Part shown: piece after piece, positions 21,500-64,000 of the stretch
How positions within the stretch are numbered: the first letter of the stretch is position 1
How the letters are laid out: each line of letters begins with the position of its first letter
Source: Planoprotostelium fungivorum
Taxonomy: Eukaryota; Evosea; Variosea; Cavosteliida; Cavosteliaceae
Assembly (NCBI GenBank): GCA_003024175.1
Contig: MDYQ01000111.1
Coordinates: 62,001 to 126,000, forward strand
Reading direction: 5' to 3'
DNA length: 64,000 nucleotides
Notes under the pieces: generated by a model
The model's input: only the letters and a program-made list of their open reading frames with translations
What the model was told of the DNA's origin: nothing
Databases searched by the model: none
Translations under genes and position numbers: made by a program

Positions 21500-24400
21500 C
21501 TATTCATCCTCTTCCGCACGTAAAAAGTGGAGGAAATCATCGGTTGGAGCGTATTGTTGGTTGACCAAGTGCGCGGCATCTACCATGTCATAGCTCATGA
21601 CTTCATCTTTTGGCCATAGGTCCGTCTCGTACACATTGTTGGATGATCCATCGGACAACCAGCTACATATCTGTACAAAGTCGGGTCTGTCCTCTGGTGA
21701 TGCCATCCACACTCCTGCTCGATGTTCAACGAGATAGACTGACCTCTTCTTACCCTTCATGACGGCTTGTAGCGTAAGTGGGGTACCATCCGGTATCTCC
21801 AATCTGTCACTCGTCAGTACAGAGTGTGTCTATGATCTGTACCTTTTATCGTTGAGGATGTCGATGGCAACCTCTACCATTGCCCTTTCACCCCATGGCT
21901 CTTCACACGTCAAGATCTCCCAGATGACCACACCGAAAGAAAAGGCTGAGTGCACGTTAATTGGATGCCAATGGTACAGGGTAAATGAGTCACCGTCAGA
22001 TTTAGTGCTGTACTCTCGCTTCGATATGGCTTCGGGCGACATCCATTTCACAGGCCCCATGGTACTGGCTGTTGTCGATGCAGTGTCTCTGCTCTGTATC
22101 TGCCTAGACATGCCAAAGTCGCTCACTTTTGCCTCGTGATGCTTTCTGCTCAGAGTCAGATATGGATGTATGACCCTTCGCTCACGAGAGCAGAATGTTT
22201 CTGGCAGCAAGATCTCTGTGTATGATCTGTTTGACGTCAGTCGACACATGATGACAAATGATGACTAATGATGACAAATGATGACGAATGATGACATCAC
22301 CTTCTCTTGATGTAGATGCAGCACTCCTTTGGCTATTCCAAGAATAATGCTGTCCTTCTTCTCTTGTGTCACTTCATTTCTGTGTGCCTCCAGATAGTCC
22401 AGTAGACATCCACCCTCACAGAATTCGCTGTTTGTATGTCTCAATCTCATGTGTCGTCTGATGCATCCGATACTCACGTGACGATAGACAGGGGATCAGG
22501 GGGAAACGTGTATCCCATGAACAGCACCACGTTCTGTTACATCATCGTCAGCTTCATCCTTTTTTCCTTCTCTTCTCACCGGATGAGGTCTCAAGCTCTG
22601 CACTAACGTCGCTTCATCCTGTTCCTCGTCAGTCGTTCACGTGCGATGAAAGATCACCAAGAAACTCTGCATCTGATCTGTGTTGATGTGTTCACTTCGT
22701 ATCTGTCACACGTCACTACATCATAATGACATGCTTTATCACCTGCTTGACAGCCACCGTTACGCTTCTCCAACTGGCCCTGTATACGATTCCAAACGCT
22801 CCCGATCCGATCATCACTTGTCCTTCTAACTCGCTGAATGGAATCTAAATTCACACAATCAGTTTGATCTTCGATGAGATCAGCAGATAACTCACCACAC
22901 TCTTGAGAGTGGCGTTGTTGTTGATCTGTGTAAAATCCACGAAGTCGAAGCTCGTTTTGTAGACTTGTTTCTTTCTCGCCAATAAGAGGACGATGACTAT
23001 TATGAAGACTAAGAAGAAGACACAAGCGATGACAGTTCCAGCAATAGCTCCTGCTAGGAATGAGATAAGATGAGACGACATGTGAAGATGAGAAGAATGG
23101 TTCACCGGCAGAGAGTCCAGTAGAAGCAGGGATGGCATCGGGCGTGATGGAGTCAGACACGCTCTGCACAGTGATGTTCATCGAGCTGTACGCTGACGAT
23201 CCCACTTGGTTGAGATATGACACTACTCTCGATGACGACCCTTCGTTCGATCCTTCTGTCATTTCGTCATCATCTGAATATGGTTGTGAGAATCACCAGA
23301 GGGAGGAGAGAAGGACAAATCGACAATCACACTGCCTGATCTCGTTCTCAGTATCTGCACTCTGTCGCTGCTGATGGCTGCGATCTTGGCCACTGACTGT
23401 ATGAAAGATGCAGAATCGAATGTAGAGACGCTCCCTGCACGTTTCAGCTCTTTCGTCATTCGGTGAGCTCTGTCACCTGCTATTCTGATGCTCATGTCAG
23501 CCGACTGATAGTTGTCCACTTGACATCTGGCTTGACATAGAACAGACGCTTGGGCTGGCAGAGGGCACACGAAAGTCTGATGAGTGAAATTGCAGTAAGA
23601 CAAAGAAGGAACGTTGACCATCAGCATGACATCAGTCAGCGTGTTGTATGACAGGTCAAGCGTAGACAGTGAGGTACAGCCTGTGAGATCAGGTACAGAT
23701 CCGTTGATGGTGTTGTGGCTGCACATGAGTCAGGTCAGATGTCGCACTACAAAGATCACCTTGCATCGAGATACCTCAGATTGAACAGCCCTGTTCATCG
23801 TAAGAGGCACATCTAAACAATCACCACCGATGAGTGTCACCTGACATAGAGGGAAGTGAACTGATCAGATTATGACTGACGTCAATAGACAACAGTCCTC
23901 TCATTCCGTTCAGCGTCTTGATCTGTCCGCTAAATGCGTTTCCTGTCACTCGTTCAGTTTCCGCTCATGTAGAAATGATAGATCACCGCTGAGGTTGAGA
24001 CGAGTGAGAGAAGACAGTGTGTCTAAGAAGCTGAGAGGTCCACTCAACTGATTACTGTGTCGCTTAGAAGATGTGGCAATACATATGATGGTCACCTCGA
24101 CAGATCGATGGTCTGTGGATCAGATTTGAGAGGATATGGCACTTGTCCTGTCAGCTGATTGTGCGACAGAGATAGCACTCGTAAGGAGTTCTGCTTCGCT
24201 GTACAGTATCAGATCTCACGGCGGTGTATACAACCCACCCAGTCCAACAGGTATCGATCCCACCAATCGATTGTAAGACTTTTACACGTCAGATAATGGA
24301 TTGGGGTAATCTAAACTCACGAGATCGATGACCTGTAGTCCTATCGATCCACTGATGTCTGGTATGTTTCCGTTCAGATTGTTGCCAGAGACGTTCAGTG

Positions 24401-27365
24401 ATATCAGATTGGGTAAGCTGAAGACGTCCTGCAGTCCTCCCGTCAGCTGATTGTTGCCCAGCGATAACGTCGTCATAGAGCTGAACAAGAGTCAATGATG
24501 ATTGTGTGGTAGAGAGTCACCTCGATTTGGTCACTGAGCTCGGAATGTCACCGACAAAATTGTTGTTGTCCTTACTTGGTCAGATGTCGTGTGAAAGATG
24601 AACGATGTCTCACAAAGTTGAGCTGAATCATCTGTGGTGAGCCCATCGCACCTGCGTAGGTTTAAAACGCATCATCATCAGCATCTCACCAGGTGGAATC
24701 ACTCCTCCAAACTTGTTATAGGATAGATCTGTCAGATATCAACGCGAGATGGAATATGAGACGTACCCATGTACTGTAGCTGACTCAGCTGGGCTAGCCT
24801 CGATTCTAGCGAGCCTGTCAACTGGTTTCTGCTCAAGTTGAGATAGGCCAAAGATGACAGCCTATCTTATGTTAGATGATGTCAATGCACATCATCACTC
24901 ACGATCCGATACTGTATTCCATATTACCAGTCAGCTGATTTGAACTGAGGTCGAGATGATACAGCGGCATTGTCACATTATAACCCTGTGTGAGTCAACA
25001 TCAGAGGATGCAGAGATCACGCACTTGTGGCATTCTGCCCGAAAGTTGATTGTTCGACCAATCACCTGCGACTCGTCAATCGTCTCCAATACAGAAATTC
25101 AAAACATGATGCGAAAAGTTCTCACAATAAGTCATCAACCTCCTGTCTCGAGTCAATCCACACAGTCTAACGGTAGTGCACTCACAGACTGATGGAGCTG
25201 CATGGACCTGAGAACTGATTGTACGAGATGTCCAGCAGCTGGATCTGCGGCATGCTCGACATCCAGAAGACTGTGCCGTTGAACTGATTCCTCTGGATCT
25301 GCAGCTTGAGTAAGTTGGAAGGTAGAGATGGTATAGGGCCGGTCAACTGAGACAACATCAGCGATGAGATGAGAAGCATAACGATGGCTCACTTCGTTAT
25401 CATTCATCCTTATCTGTAAGATCTGCGTGAGGTTCGTGATAGATCGAGGAAAGCCGCCCGTAAACTGATTGTAAGAGAGGTCGAGTACCTGCAATTGGGA
25501 CATCGAACCGAATGCATCGGGGATATCACCCTTTAACCTGCCCTGTGTCAGTTTCTTATATTGTATTTCCTCCACTCGAACACACCTGTTCTGACCGAAT
25601 TGCAGTAGAGCGATACTAGTCAGCTGAGAAACCTTGGGTGACAGCGTTCCAGTCAACTGATTCGACACCAGATTGAGTTGAAGGAGCTGTGTGCATTCGT
25701 ACAGCTCGTCAGGTATCGTTCCATTCAGCTCATTGTATCCCAACACCAGATACTGACAGGTTCAATCAGAGTGCGATAAACAGACTCACCACTAGTTTCG
25801 TAAGATTCTTGATGTCGGGTGAGATCGATCCGGTGAACCTGTTGTTGTTCAACTGGAGAGTGTCGATCTGTGTCGATCTGTAGATCGATGGAGGTATCTC
25901 TCCAGTGAAGCTGTCACCCTTCAGAGATGATATCATTGGCACAATCTCACTTGTTGGCATAGGCAATGATTTGAGCTAGATTGGGTAACTGATCCCAGAT
26001 GTCCTTTGTCTCTGTCAGTCAGATGATCGATGGTCGATCTCACCGGAAGGGGACCACTGAAGCCGTTGCCAGATATCGTGAGGTACGCCAAAGCTTTCAA
26101 CTGACCCAAGGAAGCAGGAATGGGACCAGTCAATTGGTTGTATCCCATGGCTATGATGTACAGATCGGGTAATGTGTTCACCCACTCTGGGAATTCTCCA
26201 TCAAATGCATTGAAGTCAATCCAAAGGAACTGTAGTGCTGTACGATCCATTCAGAGAGACAGAAGATGGAGAGTAGAATCACCTTTACATTGTCTCAGGT
26301 CAGGGACGGGTCCATGGTAATTGTTTGAATAGATCGTAAAATTGATCAACTGAACAGACATCAGTACCATCATGGTACATTTTGGGTAAATCGATCATCA
26401 CCTTTGGAAGTGCTAACGGACCAGTCATCTGGCTGAAATTTCCATCAAAGTTGTTCGCTCCCAGATGTAGATCTGTCAAATTGACGAAGTCATCTGTTCT
26501 TCGTCAATCCACAGCATCGACTGTACCTCTCTCACTCAATCGTGACAAGTTGATGTGACTGAAACTGTTGCCAAACAGTCCCAGGGCCGTCAACTTTGTC
26601 AGCTTCATCCAAGACTCCTGCAACAACATCAGTTCACCTCCTCTCTTCCATCGATCTCACCGGCACAGGGCCATATAGACGTCCGTTTTTGGATGTCACT
26701 CCCAGAGATAGACAAGTGAGATTGACCAGATTGCCCAGATCGTCAGGTAACATGCCAAGGAAGTTGTGGTTGAAGAAGTCGATGTATTCGAGGCGAGTCT
26801 TTGTGATCCAACTTGGAAAGGGACCACTCAGGTGATTGTGAGTAACTACGGTGGTAGCCGGATCATTGATGCCTCCATTATCTCCGAGATCGAGGACGGT
26901 CAGATCTTCGGGCGATGAGTCGATTGACAGACAGAAGACCACATGTCGATGTGTGGGAAGGATGATGTGAGAACAACTCACAAGAGAGACCAGACAGATC
27001 GGGTAGCTGACCCACGAGGTTGTTGTCTGAATCAGATGAATCAAGGGGACCATGTGCACCAGTACTCACTTAATCGAATTTCAGTAACGTGTCCATTTCC
27101 ATCACAAGTGATGCCATAGTAGCTGTGTAAAGTTGAACGAGTGATGGATTGTAGAGAATCAAATACCTGCAATAGCTGGCTGTTGTATTTTCCCAGTGTG
27201 TGTTGTTTATCCACTGCTCGCCTGTCCATTTCAGCTCACGTCTCCTGATTTTCGATCACCTCCCAACTCAACATATAGAGTTCTGAGAATATCCGCCTCT
27301 GCCCGAAACAGAGCTGCAGCTGATGTACAGAAAGTAAGAAGGATGCAGAGACCGTCCACTCTCAT
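21500..27365 (-). CDS. LRR receptor kinase with tyrosine-kinase-like domain, copy A
   Basis: Single-pass receptor of about 1,400 residues. It starts with a signal peptide (MRVDGLCILLTFCTSAAALF) and a plant-type LRR cap (WINNTHWENTTASYC, YYGITCDGNGHVTEIRL). More than 20 LRRs of the form LxLSxNxLTGxIP follow, often close to one repeat per exon. A juxtamembrane region (SYLNQVGSSAYSSMNITVQS) leads to the membrane helix AIAGTVIACVFFLVFIIVIV. The kinase has IGSGAFGIVYRASWRSVTVA with VK, NVVLFMGYTFPPDP, HRDLAARNILLS (HRD segment at 22197-22220), VSDFGMSR and GPVKWMSPEA. Lys, HRD and DFG are all present. HRDLAARN and PVKWM are tyrosine-kinase signatures; the N-lobe looks more like TKL kinases. The activation segment lacks tyrosine. 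The start at 27365 is fixed by the signal peptide. The tail ends FLRAEEDE. Confidence 0.88.
22248..22295. repeat. Intronic 10-bp tandem repeat (ATGATGACNA), five units
   Basis: Five tandem units with small variation lie in the kinase intron of copy A. The matching intron of copy B (28496-28534) has four units, so the array changed length after the duplication. Confidence 0.85.
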
Positions 27366-27749: not shown

Positions 27750-30700
27750 CTATTTCTTTTCATCCTCTTCTAAAACGCCGAGGAAATTATCGGTCGAAGC
27801 GTATCGCTGGACCATATGCGTGGTGTCGACTGCATCATATATGATTCCTTCGTCTTTCGTCCGTCCGTCCGACTCGTAGTAGTCTTTGGTGACTTGACCA
27901 TCAGACAACCAGCTACAGATCTGTACAAAGTCGGGTCTGTCCTCTGGTGATGCCATCCACACTCCTGCTCGATATTCAACGAGATAGACTGACCTCTTCT
28001 TACCCTTCATGACAGCTTGTAGTGTAGGTGGTGTACCGTCTGGAATCTTTAATCTGTCACTCGTCAGTACAGAGTGTCGATGATGCGTACCTTTTATCGT
28101 TGAGGATGTCGATGGCAACCTCTACCATAGCCCTTTCACCCCATGGCTCTTTGCATGTCAAGATCTCCCAGATGACCACACCGAAAGAGAAGGCTGAGTG
28201 CACGTCAGTTGGATGCCAATGGTACAGGGTAAATGAGTCACCGTCAGATTTAGTGCTGTACTCTCGCTTCGATATGGCCTCAGGTGACATCCATTTCACA
28301 GGTCCGATGGTGCTGGCTGTTGTCGACGCAGTGTCTCTGCTCTGTATCTGCCTAGACATGCCAAAGTCGCTCACTTTTGCCTCGTGATGCTTTCTGCTCA
28401 GAGTCAGAAATGGTTGAATGGTTCTTCGCTTACGAGAGCAGAATGTTTCTGGCAGCGAGATCTCTGTGTATGATCTGTTTGACGTCAGTCGACACATGAT
28501 GACGAATGATGACGAATGATGACGGATGATGACATCACCTTCTCTTGATGTAGATGCAGCACTCCTTTGGCTATTCCAAGAATAATGCTGTCCTTCTTCT
28601 CTTGTGTCACTTCATTTCTGTGTGCCTCCAGATAGTCCAGTAGACATCCACCCTCACAGAATTCGCTGTTTGTATGTCTCAATCTCATGTGTCGTCTGAT
28701 GCATCCGATACTCACGTGACGATAGACAGGGGATCAGGGGGAAACGTGTATCCCATGAACAGCACCACGTTCTGTTACATCATCAGTTTCTTTCCTGTCT
28801 TTCGTCTCTCACCGGATGAGGTCTCATGCTCTGCACTAACGTCGCTTCGTCCTGTTCCTCGTCAGTCATCCACGTACGATGAAAGATCACCAAGAAACTC
28901 TGCATCTGATCTGTGTTGATGTGTTCGCTTCGGACCTATCACATGTCATTACATCTATGACATCATCTCTCTCACCTGCTTGACGGCCACCGTGTTACTT
29001 CTCCAGCTGGCCTTGTAGACAACTCCATATGCTCCTGATCCTATCATCACTTGTCCTTCTAGCTCGCTGAATGGGATCTAATCTTCTCAGTCGATGAAGT
29101 CTACGATGAGATCAGCAGATAACTCACCACACTCTTGAGAGTGGCGTTGTTGTTGATCTGTGTGAAATCGACCAACTCGAAGCTCGTCTTGTAGACTCTT
29201 CTCTTTCTCGTCAATAAGAGGACGATGACTAGTATGAAGACGAAAAAGACCACACAAGCGATGACGATTCCAGCGATAGCTCCTGCGAGGAATGAGATAA
29301 GATGAGACGATGTGGTTCACCAGCAGAGAGTCCAGTAGAAGCAGAAGCAGCATCGGGCGTGATGGAGTCAGACACGCTCAGCACAGTGATGTTCATCGAG
29401 CTGTACGCTGACGATCCCACTTGGTTGAGATATGACACTACTCTCGATGATGACCCTTCGTTCGATCCTTCTGTCATTTCGTCATCATCTGTATATGGTT
29501 GTGAGAATCACCAGAGGGAGGAGAGAAGGACAGATCGACAATCACACTGCCTGATCTCGTTCTCAGTATCTGCACTCTGTCGCTGCTGATGTCTGCGATC
29601 TTGGCCACTGACTGGATGAAAGACGCAGAATCGAAGGTAGAGACGTTTCCTGTACATTTCAGCTCTTTCATCATTCGGTGAGATCTGTCACCTGCTATTC
29701 TGATGCTCATGTCAGCCGACTGATAGTTGTCCACTTGACATCTAGCTTGACATAGAACAGATGCTTGTGCTGGCAGAGGGCACACGAAAGTCTGATGAGT
29801 GAAATTGCAGTAAGACAGAGAAGGAACGTTGACCATCAGCATGGCATCAGTCAGCGTGTTGTATGACAGGTCAAGCGTAGAGAGCGAGGTACAGCCTGTG
29901 AGATCAGGTACAGATCCGTTGATGGTGTTGTGGCTGCACATGAGTCAGGTCAGATGTCGCACTACAAAGATCACCTTGCATCGAGATACCTCAGATTGAA
30001 CAGCCCTGTTCATCGTAAGAGGCACATCTAAACAATCACCACTGATGAGTGTCACCTGACATAGAGGGAAGTGAACTGATCAGATTGTGACTGATGTCAA
30101 TAGACAACAGCCCTCTCATTCCATTCAGCGTCTTGATCTGTCCGCTAAATGCGTTTCCTGTCACTCGTTCAGTTTCAGCTCATCTAGAAATGATAGATCA
30201 CCGCTGAGGTTGAGACGAGTGAGAGAAGACAGTGTGTCTAAGAAGCTGAGAGGTCCACTCAACTGATTACTGTGTCGCTTAGAAGATGTGGCAATACATA
30301 TGATGGTCACCTCGACAGATCGATGGTCTGTGGATCAGATTTGAGAGGATATGGCACTTGTCCTGTCAGCTGATTGTGCGACAGAGATAACACTCGTAAG
30401 GAGTTCTGCTTCGCTGTGATCATCTCAGATCTCTCGGCAGAGTACATACAACTCACCCAGACCAACAGGTATAGATCCCACCAATCGGTTATAGGACTTC
30501 CATTTGTCAGTTGATCAATCAACAGGATTCAAACTCACGAGATCGATGACCTGTAGTCCTAGCGATCCACTGATGTCCGGTATGTTTGCGTTCAGATTGT
30601 TGCCAGAGACGTTCAGCGATATCAGATTAGGTAAGCTGAAGACGTCTTGCAGTCCTCCTGTCAGCTGATTGTTGCCCAGTGACAACGTCGTCATAGAGCT

Positions 30701-49359: not shown

Positions 49360-51895
49360 ATGATGGAATCACAGATGGAAACGATGAAAGGATTATACAA
49401 CGCAGTTACGGGTAACCCCACTGTCCAAAATGTAGCCAACACGACCGCGGCTGCCGTCGGCACCGCCGTGAACACAGTCAATGATGGAATCAGAGGTGAC
49501 ATCAAGCAGAGAGATCTGTCCACCTACACTGTCGAGGACTGCCAGAAGGGAAATTACATCACCACCGACTTTGGAACTCGCATGAGTGACACCGACACTT
49601 CTCTCAAGGTAATGAACACGTCACGTGGCCTTGACTCATCTTCATCGTAGGGAGGAGAGAGAGGACCAATTCTATTGGAGGACTTCCATTTCAGAGAGAA
49701 GACCACCCACTTCGATCACGAGAGAATCCCCGAAAGAGCCGTCCACGCCAGAGGTGGACCCATTCATCTTCCAACATCGTTCTCAATTCGATGCAGGAGC
49801 TGGAGCCCACGGATACTTCCAAATGTACGAGGCCATCCCCGACCTCTCATGCGCCGATGTCTTCCAACATCCTAGCGAGAGGACTCCAGTTTTCGTCCGA
49901 TTCTCCACCGTAGCTGGTAGCAGAGGTTCCGCCGACACTGTTCGTGACGTCAGAGGATTCGCCGTCAAGTTCTACACGAAAGAAGGAAATTGGGATTTGG
50001 TTGGTAACAACATCCCCATCTTCTTCGTGCAAGAGGCCATCAAGTTCGCCGACGTGAGTTTCATCTACAACTCGCCAAGTCTGACTCCATCAGTTGGTCC
50101 ATGCTGCCAAGCCGGAGCCACACAATGAGATTCCACAGGCTCAGACCGCTCACGACAACTTCTGGGACTTCATCTCTCTCACACCCGAGTCCACTCACAT
50201 GACTCTGTGGACCATGTCCGACCGAGCCATCCCAAGAAGTTACCGTCTCATGCAAGGTTTCGGCGTCCACACTTTCGTCCTCTACAACGCAGACGGCAAG
50301 AGGAGGTTCGTCAAGTTCCACTGGACTCCCAAATTGGGAAGCCACTCTCTCGTTTGGGACGAGTCCCAAAAGATCACCGGAGCCGACCCAGATTTCCACA
50401 GGAGAGATCTGTGGGAAGCCATCGAGTCCGGAGCTTACCCAGAGTGGGAATTGGGACTCCAGATCGTCGAAGAAGAAGACGAGCACAAGTGAGCGCGTTC
50501 TGGCGCGTTGTAGACTGACCCCTCACAGGTTCGATTTCGACATCTTGGATTCGACCAAGTTTATTCCAGAGGAGCTCGCACCCATTCGTTACGTTGGAAA
50601 GATGGTATTGAACCGTAACCCGGACAACTACTTTGCCGAGACTGAACAAGTTGCCTTCTGTACTCAACACGTCGTGCCCGGTATTGCCTTCAGCAATGAC
50701 CCTCTCCTCCAAGGAAGAAACCACTCTTACCTCGACACTCAGATCACGAGACTCGGAGGTGACGTCCGTCTACAACTCGCCATCTTTCTCACACGGCGTA
50801 GGACCGAATTTCCAGGAGATTCCCATCAACAAGCCCGTGTGCCCCGTGACCAACAACCAGCGAGACGGAGCCCACAGGATGACCATTAACAAGGGAAGAG
50901 TCAATTACTTCCCCAATCGTTTCGGTTGTCCCATGACTGCCACGGCCGCTCAGGGAGGTTACGTCCACCCTCCCACCATGGTCCACGGTCCCAAAATCAG
51001 AGCGCGCGGTCCCAAATTCGCCGAGCACTTCAACCAGGCGAGATACTTTTACAACTCCCTCTGCTCTTGGGAGAAGGAACACGTCATCAAGTCCTACGCT
51101 TTCGAGTTGGGACACGTCGACGATCTCGGCGTGAGAGAGAAGATGATCCAACGTCTCAACTGCGTCGACCTCGATCTCGCACAGAAGGTCGCCTCGGCCA
51201 TTGGAGTCAAGCCCCCCACCACTTTCGACGGTAACGCCCACGACCAGAGGTGATGACTAGATCTCATCGTCATGACCGTCATGACACTCGACAGATCGGC
51301 CAAGTTGACTCTTGCGGGAAGCCCCAGGGACAGCATCGCCACGAGAAAGATCGCCTTCTTGATCGGCCCCGGCTACAACTCGGCCCAATTGAAGACGGTC
51401 CGTGCCGGCCTGGCTGCCGCTGGTGCCGTGACGGTTGTCATCGGCCCCACCAAGGGAGAGCAAGAGAAGGGAGACGAGGCCCAGTTCACTTACACCTCCT
51501 GCAAGTCCGTCCTCTTTGACGGTCTCGTCTTGGTCGGTGGAACGCAGTACGAGAAGATGAGCCAGATAGGAGAGGTGAAGATTTTATTCTATTTTATTGT
51601 TTCGAGGGCTGACTCGAAGCAGGTGAAGCAGTTTGTCAACGAGACGTTCAAGCACTGCAAGCCCATCGGTGCGATCGAAGAGGGAGCCGAGTTCTTAAAG
51701 ACATTCGGCTTCATCGGCGTCGGCATCGCAGGACCCGGCGAGCAGGATGTCTCATCGCAGGGAGTGGTCACCAGCATGAAGTTCTCACCCTCCATCATGG
51801 ACCTGTCTGGAACGATATCTTGGGGCAAGGACTTGCACAAGGCCATCGCCGAGCACAGACACTTTGAGAGAATCATCGACCCCGTTCCCGCTTAA
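49360..51895 (+). CDS. Large-subunit (clade 2) catalase with C-terminal glutaminase-like domain
   Basis: Heme catalase that breaks down hydrogen peroxide, of the long KatE/HPII type, about 710-720 residues. Catalytic His lies in [16 protein letters not shown]; the Asn/Phe region reads [20 protein letters not shown] and [18 protein letters not shown]. The heme-Tyr block reads [20 protein letters not shown]. The core ends with [20 protein letters not shown] and [21 protein letters not shown] class I glutamine-amidotransferase-like domain follows ([51 protein letters not shown]), as in HPII, with no evident catalytic Cys triad. The N-terminal extension ([20 protein letters not shown]) also fits long catalases. 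About eight short introns show the gene is host-resident. No peroxisomal SKL; it ends DPVPA. Confidence 0.93.
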
Positions 51896-53270: not shown

Positions 53271-56200
53271 TCAGACGAGGGAGGCATAAGGATCGGGACC
53301 TTCAGAGAGGTCGTGCACTCTGGTCCCCGGTTTGTAGCCATTCATCTGGAATCGAATGACGATGGCTCTGGGAGTTAAACGCTCTTTCGGTGATTCGCGG
53401 CAGCTGTTCGTGTCATCGTCTCATTCATCTGATCGATCCGTCTCACCACTCTTCGATGATGGATCTGATCGTCTGGTTCCAATGTGGCTCTATCTGGGGT
53501 ACCACTCCCTTGGCAATCTGTTGATACATCTGTTGATCTGTCAATATGTCGTCCTCGTTCATCTCTTCACCTTCTGTTCTTGTTGGTACGGCTCTACTCC
53601 GCTCACGATTCGCCACAAGAGCATTCCAAAGCTCCACGTATCAGAAGCGGGTGTGATGGGTAATTCTTTGACGGCCTCAGGTGACTGAGCTACAGTCAGA
53701 AGTCTTCGCGATCGAGGATGTCGAGCTACGGTATCTCACACTGTAAGCCGAGCGATCTTCTTTCGAACTGAGACGACCCGTAGAAACACATCGAGAGAAG
53801 CCACAGAGTTTCGCCAGAATGACGGACCCTTCGATGGAGAGTAAGATCTGATCATCGTGTCAGAGATGATCGATCGCATCACATGACGCTCGATCACCTT
53901 CTTCGGGCAGATCTGATTGTGAACGACATTGTTATCTTCCAGGTAGGATAGGGCCGTGCTAATCTGAGAACCTCTGCGAACGAAGGTGAGTGGTGATAAG
54001 AAGTATCCATACTAGGTCCACTCACATGAGATGGGTCATGTCTGAGCTCAGTGTGTTGCCCTTCATGTATGTGTGAAGGTTTCCACTGTTCATCCATTCC
54101 ATCACAACACAAGACACTGCGACGGTCAACTCTCAACATCTGACACACAAACTCTACCTTCAGTGGAGAACTCTTGGTTGAGATACATGACGATGTTTGG
54201 ATGATGGAAACTCTGTCTCACATCAACTCGGATAATCTTTGTGATTGCCCATGTCAATTCACCTTCAGAGATATCGCCTCCTCCATCAGCTTTGTCCTGT
54301 ATTCATCTTTCGCCACTTTGATAGCCACGCGATTTGTATCTAAATAGAAACCCTCCCACACGGCGCTGTACTTCCCCTGGTGAATCTGTGACTTGTACGA
54401 GATTTTTCCCGCCAATTCGCTGACGGAATTCATCTTGATATCGTTCGCATCCGCTTGCATCTGGACGGTGATATTAGAATCCACGATACATCACCATACA
54501 ACACCTTTCTCTTGTACAGTATAACGATGACGATGACCACCAACAGGATCAAGAGACAGCCTCCGACGACTGCACCGATGATGATTCCCAGATTGTTCTT
54601 TGGACCGGACGTATTTGAGACAGTGGAATCTTCTCCACTCCCAGTGTTGACTTGACCTCCGTTTCCGTTTCCGTTGCCTCTCGAGATGAGTGTGAAATTG
54701 GTCAAATGATTGCAGTAGCATTTGTAGACGAGAGAGCTGTAGGTAGTATTACAGCCTTCGGTGGACCATCTCAATAGAGACTCGTCCCAAAAGCCGCAAA
54801 TGAGAGCTGTTCGATATTCAATGAGATTCGTACATGTGTTCTCACAGTTGTTCTCGCGGTCCAAATTGAACTGAATGACCACCGGCGTCTCCGTGTCTTT
54901 CACCGAGATTTCTGTGCCATTAGCATGGTATAGACTGACACCAGCCACCGCTACGAAACTGAATGATCTCAATTTCCATGTTGAATCGAATGACTTACGT
55001 GGTCACATTCGTCTCAAACTCTGCAGGTATCTCTCTCGTCGTGTAGTACAGCAGATAAGATCCGTTCGTCAAGCTCTGTGGCTCAATCACACCAGGAGGC
55101 AGAGTCACTCCTCCCAGATGGGTCGATATTTCTGCAGTGATGTTCTGCTGTAGGGTAACGGCGGTGAGATTGAGACGATCAGAAGAGAATGTGACAGATC
55201 CGTTGAGCATGTAATTAGCCAAGTTAGGCAGGAGATCGTACAAAGTATTCACTATTTCTTATCAGAGCTTGAGAATGATCACGATAACTCACGGAAATCT
55301 TGCGTTTGGGCTTCGAACGCATCGAATGTCACGGACAGTTGTGATACCAAACTGCCCAGAATAACCGTAACATTCGCATTATCCGCTGTAATGTCTGAGT
55401 TTCACCAATGATCATCCTTATTACCTTTCAGCAATGAAGACTTGAACGTGATGGTTACATCGCTTCTCGTGTACGAAGATATCTGCTGTCCCTGGAATCG
55501 TAGACTGACTGGGACGGAGGGAGCGTCAAGATAACGACCGTAGATCGTGATATTACCCCTTGCATACTGTACGCTATAGACGATGGCTCCGCGGATGGGA
55601 TAATGAAGATCTGACGTGGGGTCGAAAGCGGGAGCAGTTGAGCAAGTCAAAGCGGAGTTTCCATGCTGAGTGGAGGACGAATCACAAGGAAACAGGGTGA
55701 CGCTCCTGAGATTTGAAGTGGCGGGAATATCGTACGAAGGGTAGGAATTGGCCGTGTTATTCTATAATCTCGTCAGGTGATAGAATTCACCGTGGAAACC
55801 TCACTCTGAAATCACAGTTGACCAGGCTAGATGAACCGGCCGCATAGATAGCTCCACCATCCGATCCGTTATTGTAAGAGAAGACGGACGCTTCCGCGAT
55901 CACTCCCGCTGAGCTTCAAGTTAGCTGTCTCACCGGGGTAACGCACTCACCGCTACTGTAGATACCACCACCCGATGGTGCGTCATTGTGGGCGAAATAA
56001 GAACGAATCACAGAGACGGCGTTTCCGTAGATACCACCGCCTCCCACAGAGCCTCCCTTGCATCGGATGAAATTACTACCGGACAGAACCACTGCACCAC
56101 TGCTGTAGACGCAACCACCCATTCGACCGGCTGTATTGTCACGGAAGGAAGTGATAGAGGCGATTAGACCCAGAGATCCGGATGTGTACAGAGCTCCTCC

Positions 56201-58351
56201 CAGACCCCCCGCTGCATTCTCTTGGAAGAGACTGTTGGATATCTCCACAGAGGCAGCTTCCATCGCCCCTCCGTTGCCGTCTGATGACGGAGCAGAGTTA
56301 CCGATGAACTCGGCCCATTCGATCGTGACGTTGGCATTTGGAGCGTAGATAGCTCCCCCGCTCTGTCCGGCCGTGTTGTAGCTGATGTTGGACAGTCGCT
56401 CGTTGTAGATCGTGAGTGTACTACCTGCCATGTAGATACCTCCACCTAGCCCGGTGGCGTTATTGTAGAGGATGTCGGTGTCGTTGAGTTGTAGAGTGTC
56501 TCCTGCACAATAGATGGCTCCACCCTGACTGGCCGAATTTCCGAGGAATCGGGCGCCGTCCACAGAGATGTTCCCACCGGATATTGCTCCTCCTCGCCCA
56601 GGGGCAGACGCCTCGTTGTCGTAAAACCACGTTCTCAGTACGTACACGTTACCCTGATAACTGTACAATCCACCCCCCGAGTCCGCCCTATTATTGGAGA
56701 TCGTAAGATCTTCGCTGTGTACATCGAGCTTGGCGTAGATTGCGCCTCCAGATCCTTTCGCTGCGTTGTTGTCGTAGACACTTGCCACCGATTTGACTGC
56801 GCCTACATCAGAATGCACGGCTCCCCCCGCACCCAGTGATCCGGTATTATTGAGAAACGTAGAGTTGTAGATCGTGGCGTCGGTCGTACTGTAGATAGCT
56901 CCCGCCGTGTCTGTCGCCGTATGTGCTATGTACAAGCTGTTGTTGGTGGTGACGCTGCTACCAGAGAATAGCGCGCCTCCAGAAGAGGCAGTGTTGTTCT
57001 CGAAGCGGGCGTTCATTATCGTCATGTCACTTTGACTCCAGACGACACCTCCCTGGCCGATCGCCATGGTAATATAATTGTTCTTGTATTCTCCACCAGA
57101 CATCTGGACCCTTCCTCTACCATAGATGGCTCCTCCGTTTCCGTTCTTGACCTTGTTTGAGGAGATGATGGTGTCGCTGACGAAAGCGTCGCCCTGGCAG
57201 TACACTGCACCTCCATTCGATGCACCAGAGTTGAGAATAAGTTGGGTAGAATTGAGGAAGACCCTTGCGTTCCCGTAGATGGCTCCTCCTTGTTGCCCCT
57301 GGTTACCTTGTAGGGTGGTATGACCCAAGAATGCGTCTGAATTAGACCAGATGGCTCCACCGTCGCCGAGCGCCGTATTGTTAGACAGAATACAGTTGAA
57401 GGTACGGACGGTACCCAAGTTTGCATACAGACCGCCCGCTCTTCCTTGCGTCGAGATCGATCTCACAACGGTAGAGGAGTCCAAATCGATGTTGTTGTTG
57501 GCCCAGACGCATCCTCCGTTGTCAGAGGCAGAGTTCGTGTCGAATAGACACCTGAGGCAGCTGACGGATCCAGCGTTCGAGTAAACAGCTCCTCCGCGTG
57601 TACCCGAATTGAAAGAGAATCGGCTGTCGGTGATGGTGATGTTGTAACCGGCCCAAACGGTGGCACCGTAATCACTGAATGAATTGTTGAAGAAGGTGCT
57701 GTTGATGATGACGAGAGGAGGAGTGGGGGTGTTGGTGTGATAGATGGCACGCTGTGTGTTGAACGAGAAGGTGCAGCTATCCACGGTGAGAGCTCCGTTG
57801 ATGACTTTGATAGCTGAGCCGGTGTTGAATTGGAGCATGCTTCTCGAGATGATGAATGTGTTTGTGGTGGATGCGGATGTGATGACAGGAGAGGTGGAGA
57901 ATGTGCTGTCCGAGATCGTCACGTTGGGGACTTCTGTGAAGGATACGGTGGACCCTGAGAATAAGACGTTCGATATCGCCACCTGCGATGATTGAGATCC
58001 GACATCGAAAATGAAGGTGAGGTTTCATTCTACCTGGGGTATACTGCTGAATGTTATGGAACCGGTGATGACGGTATTGTTCGGATTCAAAGTGGAGAGC
58101 TGGAGTGTCATTTGCCCTCGAGCCGACAAAGAGGTCGACTCAGAGGTATAACTGTCCACAATAAGGTTGAAACCGGTGCATCCCGTGGAGGGGGCGTTGT
58201 TCCAGGCTGTTCGTTTTGTGAGGTGGTGAGAGGATCGTTTTCAATCACCATTGTTGATGCTCCCTGAGTAACCCGAGGTCTGCACATCGCAAACTGCAGC
58301 GTATATAGAATACAATGAAATCGAGAGGAGGACGACAATAGGGTTCCTCAT
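53271..58351 (-). CDS. GPS-motif receptor pseudokinase A: beta-helix, IPT and GAIN-like ectodomain, one TM helix
   Basis: About 1,450-1,500 residues. Signal peptide MRNPIVVLLSISLYSIYAAV. A large exon (about 55,955-57,970) encodes a right-handed beta-helix with many polymorphic-membrane-protein repeats (GGAIYSN..FxxNxA). Next come an IPT/TIG-like domain (RGNITIYGRYLDAPSVPVSL), a GAIN-B-like region (LNLTAVTLQQNITAEISTHL, VAGVSLYHANGTEISV) and a complete GPS motif: CGFWDESLLRWSTEGC and YKCYCNHLTNFTLI (54685-54798). The expected cleavage point in HL|T is at 54700-54708. Then a membrane helix (GIIIGAVVGGCLLILLVVIV) and a kinase fold (YSAVWEGFYLDTNRVAIKVA, SPEAVKELPITPASDTWSFG). HRD is HNQ (53913-53921) and DFG is CGF (53797-53805), so it should be catalytically dead although the beta-3 Lys stays. 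Tail: DLSEGPDPYASLV. Confidence 0.85.
54685..54798 (-). other. GPS autoproteolysis motif of receptor A
   Basis: All canonical GPS features are present: C-x-FWD, a second Trp, GC, C-x-CNHLTNF. The scissile bond in adhesion GPCRs lies between Leu and Thr of HLT; here HLT is encoded at 54700-54708. Four cysteines for the two GPS disulfides are in place. Confidence 0.9.
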
Positions 58352-61526: not shown

Positions 61527-64000
61527 TTATCTGACTTCTCTCTCATCGAGGTCGTCGTCGATCATGCCATAAGGATCGAACTCGTCGTGCACATTGGATG
61601 TCGAGTTGTGTTCAGACATCTGAAAGCGTCTGACAATAGCCCTGGGTGTCATTCTCTCTTTGGGTGTCATGCGACAGCTGCGATGGTCATCATTCATCTT
61701 TGAATGCACCCACTCACCACTGTTCGATGATTGTTCTGATCGTCAAGTTCCAGCGAGGCTCTATCTGGGGGACCACTCCGTTCCCGATCTGTTGGTACAT
61801 CTGATATCGTGTTCATGCATTATCTTTCACCATCGCGTCACCTTATCTTGCTGTTGATAAGGCTCGGTACCACTCATGATTCTCCACAAGAGTATACCGA
61901 AACTCCACATGTCAGAAGCCGGTGTGACTGGCTGTCCCTGAACGGCCTCGGGAGACTGAATCGCCAGTCAATTCCAAACTCTTTTGCATCATAGTGGATG
62001 CGTCAGTCTCACACTGTAAGCTGAGCGATCTTCCTTCGGACTGATATGACCCGAATGAACGCAGCGAGAGAAACCGCAGATCTTGGCGAGTATGACATTC
62101 CCCTCGATCGAGAGCAAGATCTATTCTTCCATCAGATGGTATCACAGATTCATTCGATCACCTTCTTTGGACAGATCTGATTGTGGACGACGTTGTTGTC
62201 TTCCAGGTAAGACAGACCTTTAATCACATGGGAACCTCTGTCGAGCCGTTCAGCGATGAGATGCTCTTGGCGTGCTCACATATTGTAGGCCATCTCTGAG
62301 TTCAGTTTGTGCCTTTCCATGTAGGCTTCTAAACTTCCACTGTTCATCCATTCCATCACAACGCGAGACACTGCAACGCCATCAACTGTCAACGTCTGGC
62401 ATACAAACTCTACCTTCAGTGGAGAACTCTTGGTTGAGATACATGACTATGTTCGGATGATGGAAGCTCTATCACGCATCAATTCTGTTGACGAACACGA
62501 TGATCTCACCCTCAACGATATCGCTTCTTCCATCAATCTTGCCCTGTACTCTATTTTTACCACCTTGATGGCCACTTGATTGGTGTCCGAATAGAGGCCT
62601 TCCCAAACCGTACTGCAATTTCCATCGTAGATCTTCGATTTGTACTGAATTTTTCCAGCCAATTCACCAACGGTATCCAGAGATATATGGGATGCTCCTC
62701 TTTTCATCTGGTGAGATCAGTAGGTCATTCGATATGTGATCATCATAACACCTTTCTCTTGTACAAAAGGACGATGATGACGATGACCATCACGATCGTG
62801 AGACATCCACCTAATGCGGCACCGAGAATGATACCCAAGCCGTTATTAAGACCGGATAGATTTGAGACCATTGGATTCCCTCCATTTCCAGTGATGGGTG
62901 TACTTCGATTTCCGTTATCATTTCCCTTCGAGATGATGGTGAAATTGGTCAAGTGATTGCAGTAGCATTTGTAGACGAGAGAGCTGTAGGTGGTATTGCA
63001 GCCTTCAGTGGACCATCTCAATAGAGACTCGTCCCAAAAGCCACAATGGAGAGCTATACATCATTCAGAGTGTAAATTTACGATTGGTATCTCACAATTG
63101 TTGTCTCGATCCATGTTGAACTGAATGATGATCGGAGTTTCGGTCTTCTTCACGATGATCTCCGAGCCGTTAGAGTGGTACAAACTGATACCAGCCACGG
63201 GTGCGAAGCTGATACAATCTCAATTGTCTGTCAAAGTCGAATGACTCACGTGGTCACATTCGTCTCAAACTCTGCAGGTATCTCTCTCGTCGTGTAGTAC
63301 AGCAGATAAGATCCGCTCGTCATGCTCTCAGGCTCGATCACACCAGGAGGCAGAGTCACTCCTCCCAGATGGGTCGATATTTCTGCAGTGACGTTCTGCT
63401 GTAGGGTAACGGCAGAGAGATTGAGACGATCAGAAGAGAATGTGACAGATCCGTTGAGCATGTAATCTGTCAAGCTTGGCACGAAAGTGTACAACGTGTT
63501 CACTGATATTGTCAGTCCGTCTCTAAACTGAACAGAAACTCACAGAAATCTTGCATTTGAACGTCGAATGCATCGAACGAGATCGTCCGTGCAACATTCA
63601 CTCCTCCCAACATAAGAGAAACTGGTGCATCCACCGCTGGCGCATTCAGTCTATGCGTTGTTCATCGATCTCACCCGTCAGCACCGAAGGTCTGAAAGTG
63701 ATGGCATTATCGCTTCTCGTGTATGTGGTGATCTTCTGTCCCTGGAATCGTAGATTCATTGTAACGGAAATTTCGTTGAGGTGATGGCCGCTAATTAGGA
63801 TGGTACCCCTTGTGTAATACAACTGATCGACGATAGCACCGTGGATGGGATAATAGAGGTGCGACGTCGGATCGGTCACACGTGTGGGAGAGCAAGATCA
63901 AATCGACGGTCGAGCCAGAGTCGCAAGGATAAATCGTGACGCCGTAGAGTCTAGAACTGGACGAGATGTCGTAAGAAGGATAGGTAATCGCCGTATTGTT
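61527..64000 (-). CDS. GPS-motif receptor pseudokinase B (5' part beyond window)
   Basis: Paralogue of receptor A, cut by the right window edge, so start and beta-helix are not seen. Present, in protein order: an IPT/TIG-like domain (GTILISGHHLNEISVTMNLR), a GAIN-like region (LNLSAVTLQQNVTAEISTHL, PPGVIEPESMTSGSYLLYYT), the GPS motif (CGFWDESLLRW...CYCNHLTNFTII, 62932-63045), a membrane helix (GIILGAALGGCLTIVMVIVI) and the kinase fold (STVWEGLYSDTNQVAIKVVK). As in copy A, HRD is HNQ (62177-62185) and DFG is CGF (62070-62078), so the inactive state is shared and conserved. The linker after GPS and the C-terminal tail (EFDPYGMIDDDLDEREVR) differ from A. Introns match A in position. It ends at a TAA 94 bp from the convergent secreted-protein stop. 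Confidence 0.85.
62932..63045 (-). other. GPS autoproteolysis motif of receptor B
   Basis: CGFWDESLLRWSTEGC and CYCNHLTNFTII, nearly identical to copy A. HLT is encoded at 62947-62955. Near-identity here, while the neighbouring linker diverges, fits selection on the motif. Confidence 0.9.

Follow-up and report, generated by a model that had tools for sequence, protein, structure and literature searches.

GPS motifs generally sit in GAIN domains, and in adhesion G protein-coupled receptors (GPCRs) self-cleavage occurs between the Leu and the Thr residue of the motif. The polycystin-1 family carries the motif on a non-canonical, again multi-pass, receptor. GAIN self-cleavage has been studied mainly in seven-transmembrane (7TM) receptors and in polycystins, in which cleavage is not easily told apart from tethered agonism. 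According to a survey of holozoan GPCRs, GAIN is older than the opisthokonts; non-holozoans have it in other genes, and it was joined to 7TM domains in holozoans only (PMC12716839). Here we analyse a predicted gene, copy A (53271-58351), in 64,000 nucleotides (nt) of Planoprotostelium fungivorum DNA (contig MDYQ01000111.1, positions 62,001 to 126,000; ‘the window’), which combines a complete GPS motif, a single transmembrane (TM) helix and a tyrosine-kinase-like pseudokinase domain, and has a tandem paralogue, copy B (61527-64000), both on the minus strand. With a probability of roughly 0.6, we propose that it encodes an autoproteolysed, non-covalently held single-pass type I receptor pseudokinase that would signal by scaffolding. 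In a GPS receptor that has one TM helix and a kinase-fold tail, cleavage would be separated from 7TM tethered agonism, and such a protein would also bear on the role of GAIN prior to its joining 7TM domains in holozoans.

Read from an ATG at 58351 to a TGA ending at 53271, the same limits as in an initial annotation of this DNA, copy A has 17 exons and 16 introns and would encode 1455 amino acids. The predicted protein starts with a signal-peptide-like N terminus of about 19 amino acids (58295-58351; judged from hydropathy and sequence rather than by a signal-peptide program) and continues with a beta-helix of about 700 residues and a TIG/IPT domain, which is weak. Then come about 125 residues that may form a GAIN subdomain B, the complete GPS motif, including its H-L|T site (54688-54801; Pfam E 8e-11), some 37 residues of flexible linker, a single TM helix (54514-54591) and a tyrosine-kinase-like domain spread over eight exons (53358-54400). 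This is the layout of a receptor kinase or pseudokinase, i.e. a signal peptide (by hydropathy), an ectodomain, one TM helix and a cytoplasmic kinase fold. With a 19-residue mean of at least 1.6 as cut-off, hydropathy yields two segments, the N terminus and the TM helix (3.46). Because the GPS motif and the TM helix both lie in exon 9, a single open reading frame (Pfam GPS E 9e-11), their linkage is independent of splicing. Searching Pfam with the whole spliced protein gave PK_Tyr_Ser-Thr (3.3e-40), Pkinase (1e-31), Chlam_PMP repeats (6e-19) and GPS (1e-9). The full GPS motif beside one membrane helix and a kinase fold, in a single-pass receptor pseudokinase as the initial annotation had described it, is therefore borne out within one gene model, and the tandem paralogue backs it. 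The protein is not an adhesion GPCR, since a 7TM domain was tested for and is absent, one TM helix being followed by a kinase-like domain. Its probable way of working is that of an adhesion receptor whose tail serves as a scaffold.

By its sequence, copy A is a real and well-modelled gene. Its GT-AG introns, which were placed by hand, are 39-55 nt long (38-57 nt in copy B). Such short introns are normal in this DNA, because a catalase gene on the plus strand (49616-51892; large-subunit type with short introns and a C-terminal Catalase_C domain, Pfam 7.5e-17) also contains two GT-AG introns, 40 and 43 nt long, at the places demanded by the conserved catalase protein, the intron ends having been picked by eye against a catalase sequence. 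The 16th intron was added through comparison with the paralogue: it consists of 39 nt in frame (GTGAGA...ACAG, 54807-54845) directly before the GPS motif, and a plain reading passes through it, adding 13 residues. In PDB searches with equal query ends (E<=1), 11 sequences matched when these residues were included, all 11 from adhesion GPCRs, and 16 when they were removed, 14 of them from adhesion GPCRs and the others being neuroplastin (E 0.4) and an mRNA export factor (E 0.99). Of the 11 earlier matches, 10 had a better E-value after removal (ADGRG1, from 1.7e-3 to 5.1e-6) and one had a worse one (ADGRD1, from 2.4e-3 to 3.2e-2).

Copy B, the 5' end of which lies outside of the window, repeats the TIG-like, GAIN-like, GPS, TM and pseudokinase parts of copy A with 73% DNA identity over 2.35 kb. 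All 12 intron positions placed in copy B are common to both copies, and all 11 internal exons are equal in length, whereas copy B departs from copy A in its first visible exon (326 as against 337) and in its last (151 as against 133). The recurrence of the motif and of the exon structure in copy B places the GPS architecture beyond chance. An in-frame TGA before the GPS motif made copy B a candidate pseudogene, but this was rejected because the TGA sits inside a 42-nt GT-AG intron matching the 39-nt intron of copy A. It is the sole in-frame stop from the TIG region to the end of the gene, and with the intron removed this part has zero internal stops. The first visible exon (64000-63675) contains a 1-nt frame difference, which is either a lesion or a sequence error.

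The kinase-like domain is readily recognized in both copies (PK_Tyr_Ser-Thr 3.6e-40 in copy B), and the best 60 of 2197 PDB matches are all tyrosine kinases. Sequence and PDB alignment place HNQ where HRD is expected (53913-53921) and LCG, or ICG in copy B, where DFG is expected (53800-53808), i.e. the catalytic and the Mg-binding Asp of an active receptor tyrosine kinase are lost in both copies, in line with the pseudokinase assignment. The catalytic-loop Asn is replaced by a Lys (the second of CPKK) and the glycine loop is degenerate; the VAIK lysine (54317-54319) and, by alignment to 7t6f and FAK, the alpha-C Glu are kept. Comparison of copies A and B over 603 codons, leaving out copy B upstream of the frame difference, gave an overall ratio of non-synonymous to synonymous substitution rates (Ka/Ks) of 0.27. 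At 0.117 (241 codons; Ka 0.147, Ks 1.26, Fisher p 7e-32), the ratio for the kinase domain indicates that it is under strong purifying selection. Since the losses are common to both copies and the domain is strongly constrained, what we read here is a maintained pseudokinase and not a decaying kinase. GAIN exon 8 (0.14), the GPS block (0.13) and the TM helix (0.27) follow, and ratios are looser or uninformative for the juxtamembrane part (0.38), TIG (0.43), the linker (0.50), GAIN exon 7 (0.53, p 0.19) and the C-terminal tail (1.8; 22 codons, p 0.37). Local gene conversion is likely in GAIN exon 7 and the GPS block, because Ks dips there (0.13 and 0.25) around a diverged exon 8 that, with 1.26, equals the kinase domain; at the DNA level, the copies are 92.5% identical over GAIN exon 7, and 64% and 78% over the exons on either side (62926-63502 compared with 54690-55251).

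In both copies the GPS motif retains its four Cys, both Trp and HLT. The H-L-T triplet of copy A (54700-54708) predicts self-cleavage between Leu1104 and Thr1105, the residues used for cleavage in adhesion GPCRs being intact. From the predicted cut to the TM helix there are 37 mostly Gly/Asn/Ser-rich residues (54592-54702), and this linker is variable, with 14 of 30 residues identical between the copies over its last 30 codons. The TM helix itself bears a small-xxx-small pattern, GAVVG in copy A and GAALG in copy B. Upstream of the GPS motif, the putative GAIN subdomain B (54802-55251) runs over exons 7 to 9, with introns at 54998-54959 and 54845-54807. A GAIN-GPS profile built from both copies and searched against PDB sequences (E<=1) matched 15 distinct sequences, every one an adhesion GPCR, with ADGRG1 as the best (1.6e-6). 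The ADGRG6 chain 6v55 (E 0.009) covers profile positions 37-164, i.e. most of GAIN-B, and the other matches begin at position 101 at least.

The architecture, the intact cleavage motif, the absence of catalytic residues from both copies and purifying selection on the kinase fold can be read directly from the sequence. A GAIN fold, cleavage, retention, a trigger and a partner are inferred and could work together as follows. In the secretory pathway, the GPS motif would cut itself between Leu1104 and Thr1105, and a GAIN-like beta-sandwich would hold the beta-helix/TIG fragment non-covalently on the membrane stub. A ligand or surface contact, possibly a pull, would then rearrange or strip the N-terminal fragment; as the simplest readout, this would alter TM association through the small-xxx-small pattern and uncover the flexible stub. 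The cytoplasmic domain may act as a scaffold or as an allosteric partner of an active kinase, since the usual phosphotransfer route would be unavailable to it. Because the receptor is single-pass and has no 7TM bundle, the role of cleavage here cannot be 7TM tethered agonism, and the earlier idea of a tethered peptide is not directly transferable: a classical tethered agonist does not fit a protein that lacks a 7TM pocket and has its predicted cut about 37 flexible residues away from the membrane. A more general and rather doubtful possibility is that GAIN/GPS acts as a self-cleaving latch gating a kinase-fold scaffold, with ectodomain removal read through TM association and assembly of the pseudokinase with its partner, which would make GAIN a general module outside of GPCRs.

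Several observations weigh against this reading of copy A, most of them concerning the GAIN fold. Pfam GAIN found no match at E<=10 in the region of either copy, in a search where HMMER filters drop most weak matches, and the 124 residues before the GPS motif, taken alone, matched no PDB sequence at E<=10. A model of the pre-GPS exon, i.e. of one exon with the 13 probable intron residues included, reached a predicted local distance difference test (pLDDT) score of 37, too low to be of use, and the roughly 30 residues that lie between the TIG match and the beta-rich part leave no visible room for a helical subdomain A of GAIN. In addition, some pseudokinases retain activity, and copy B, with its 1-nt frame difference and its unequal first visible and last exons, may have become a pseudogene recently or may carry an error in its sequence. 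As the pre-GPS part has no match of its own, the argument for GAIN draws on the GPS motif and on general knowledge of where such motifs sit; a GAIN fold is likely but only likely, because the GAIN-GPS profile matches nothing but adhesion GPCRs, yet the part before the motif matches nothing by itself. In the domain search proposed with the initial annotation, GPS, TIG, beta-helix repeats and kinase were found, and its GAIN domain is made likely by the profile, with no match in Pfam and an uninformative exon model.

The same difficulties make an uncleaved adhesion receptor an alternative. Some adhesion GPCRs keep GPS/GAIN uncleaved, and here this region could be a rigid juxtamembrane fold that does not cut itself, with the kinase-like domain as an anchor or scaffold. 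An unrecognizable GAIN subdomain A and a pre-GPS part too diverged for any PDB sequence or Pfam GAIN match would suit such a protein; intact H-L-T, four Cys and both Trp in both copies, and the low Ka/Ks of the GPS block, would not, and we regard it as unlikely. Somewhat less probable still is that copies A and B belong to a gene-converting receptor array with fast turnover, of a kind that serves immune or prey recognition, and that their cytoplasmic part is a decoy. The tandem arrangement, the frame difference in copy B and the low Ks of GAIN exon 7 and the GPS block relative to the kinase domain, which suggests local gene conversion, are what such an array might look like, but a decoy would need no constraint of the kind seen in the kinase domain.

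The strong constraint on this fold, together with the retained VAIK Lys and alpha-C Glu, could also be expected if the kinase were active through unusual chemistry and the protein were a true receptor kinase. This is improbable, given that the catalytic Asp, the catalytic-loop Asn and the DFG Asp are gone in both copies and that the glycine loop is degenerate. Finally, two adjacent genes could have been misjoined in this DNA-based model, with GPS-TM and kinase on separate transcripts. What makes this very improbable is that just one 44-nt GT-AG intron, without any spacer, joins the TM helix to the kinase N-lobe, and that its position is identical in the two copies.

In the autoproteolysed receptor pseudokinase that we favour, the predicted stalk consists mostly of a beta-helix-type ectodomain (55805-57982; Pfam Chlam_PMP 1.2e-24, NCBIfam POMP_repeat 4.4e-29). 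A single-sequence AlphaFold2 model of exon 3 (mean pLDDT 69) has strands along its whole length and lacks helices. With Foldseek it had no match at E<=0.001, the best being a PL6 alginate lyase (E 3.1e-3, TM-score 0.17), and pertactin reached a TMq of 0.37 (E 0.31); the model points to a fold class only and to no relative. The TIG/IPT domain (55333-55563, across the intron 55424-55386) scores 21.8 bits (E 2e-4) with an 87-residue query, just over the Pfam cut-off of 20.9, and 20.2 bits, just under it, with a 150-residue query. It is absent from the Pfam matches of the whole copy A protein at E<=1, but a reading without IPT, taken from that full-length scan, was dropped because the regional scan recovers TIG above the cut-off. 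Of the beta-helix/IPT stalk described initially, the beta-helix is supported and IPT weakly so.

Copy A shares with adhesion GPCRs (ADGRG1, ADGRG3, ADGRG6, ADGRL3, ADGRF1, BAI3) a complete GPS motif with H-L-T, a likely GAIN-B context and a large ectodomain upstream, and differs in its single TM helix where they have 7TM, in the lack of a bundle that could receive a tethered agonist, in its long flexible linker and in its kinase-like tail. Unlike the polycystin-1 family, it has no PLAT or REJ among its Pfam matches. Kinase modules have been joined to GPCRs in GPCR-TK proteins of choanoflagellates and sponges and in GPCR-TKL/K fusions of choanoflagellates (PMC12716839), all of which, unlike copy A, have 7TM domains. 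Within Amoebozoa, a survey found no GAIN in family-2 GPCRs (PMC10445921), and Acanthamoeba and Physarum are reported to have, outside of animals, proteins of the tyrosine-kinase group for which TM domains are predicted (PMC4053784, PMC4758236). The Dictyostelium receptor kinase rk3 (PMC1420674) resembles copy A as a single-pass receptor kinase with an extracellular TIG domain but belongs to the TKL group. The term ‘GPS’ does not appear in the main texts that report the Dictyostelium kinome and the Acanthamoeba and Physarum genomes. Among the open-licence papers listed, judged by titles and abstract beginnings, no description of GPS/GAIN with one TM helix and a kinase was found, which is weak evidence that the architecture is new. 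The initial suggestion of an undescribed mechano- or adhesion-sensing receptor class holds to that extent for the architecture, the sensing role being a putative one, and less so for GAIN, which PMC12716839 already reports outside of 7TM genes in non-holozoans. No relatives were confirmed in viral or genome contigs and none in plasmids (near-identical DNA), two phage matches (E 0.6 and 0.7) being put down to chance; as these collections are prokaryotic or viral, this is uninformative on eukaryotes.

The closest PDB sequences to the kinase-like domain are 7t6f (4e-24), labelled only ‘Tyrosine-protein kinase’ and presumably JAK1, and FAK (1e-23), i.e. it resembles the JAK JH2 pseudokinase and FAK/Src-type domains. 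The first matched domain of 7t6f reads HGN for HRD. In contrast to these proteins, copy A is receptor-linked, has no FERM, SH2 or second kinase domain, and carries HNQ and LCG instead of HGN and DPG. With the C-lobe alone, 7t6f and TYK2 came out on top, with CaM kinases, GRK6 and CASK lower (sequence matches, no tree). Elsewhere in the window, two near-duplicate regions on the minus strand (21500-25761 and 28060-29944) contain leucine-rich repeat (LRR) reading frames beside kinase domains and are probably LRR receptor tyrosine-kinase-like genes. The kinase domains of both regions carry the signatures by which active tyrosine kinases are known, HRDLAARN, DFGMSR and VKWMSPEA, and one of them, spliced by eye, reaches a Pfam E-value of 6.5e-75. 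As a guess, these two kinases with intact signatures might be partners of the pseudokinase tail.

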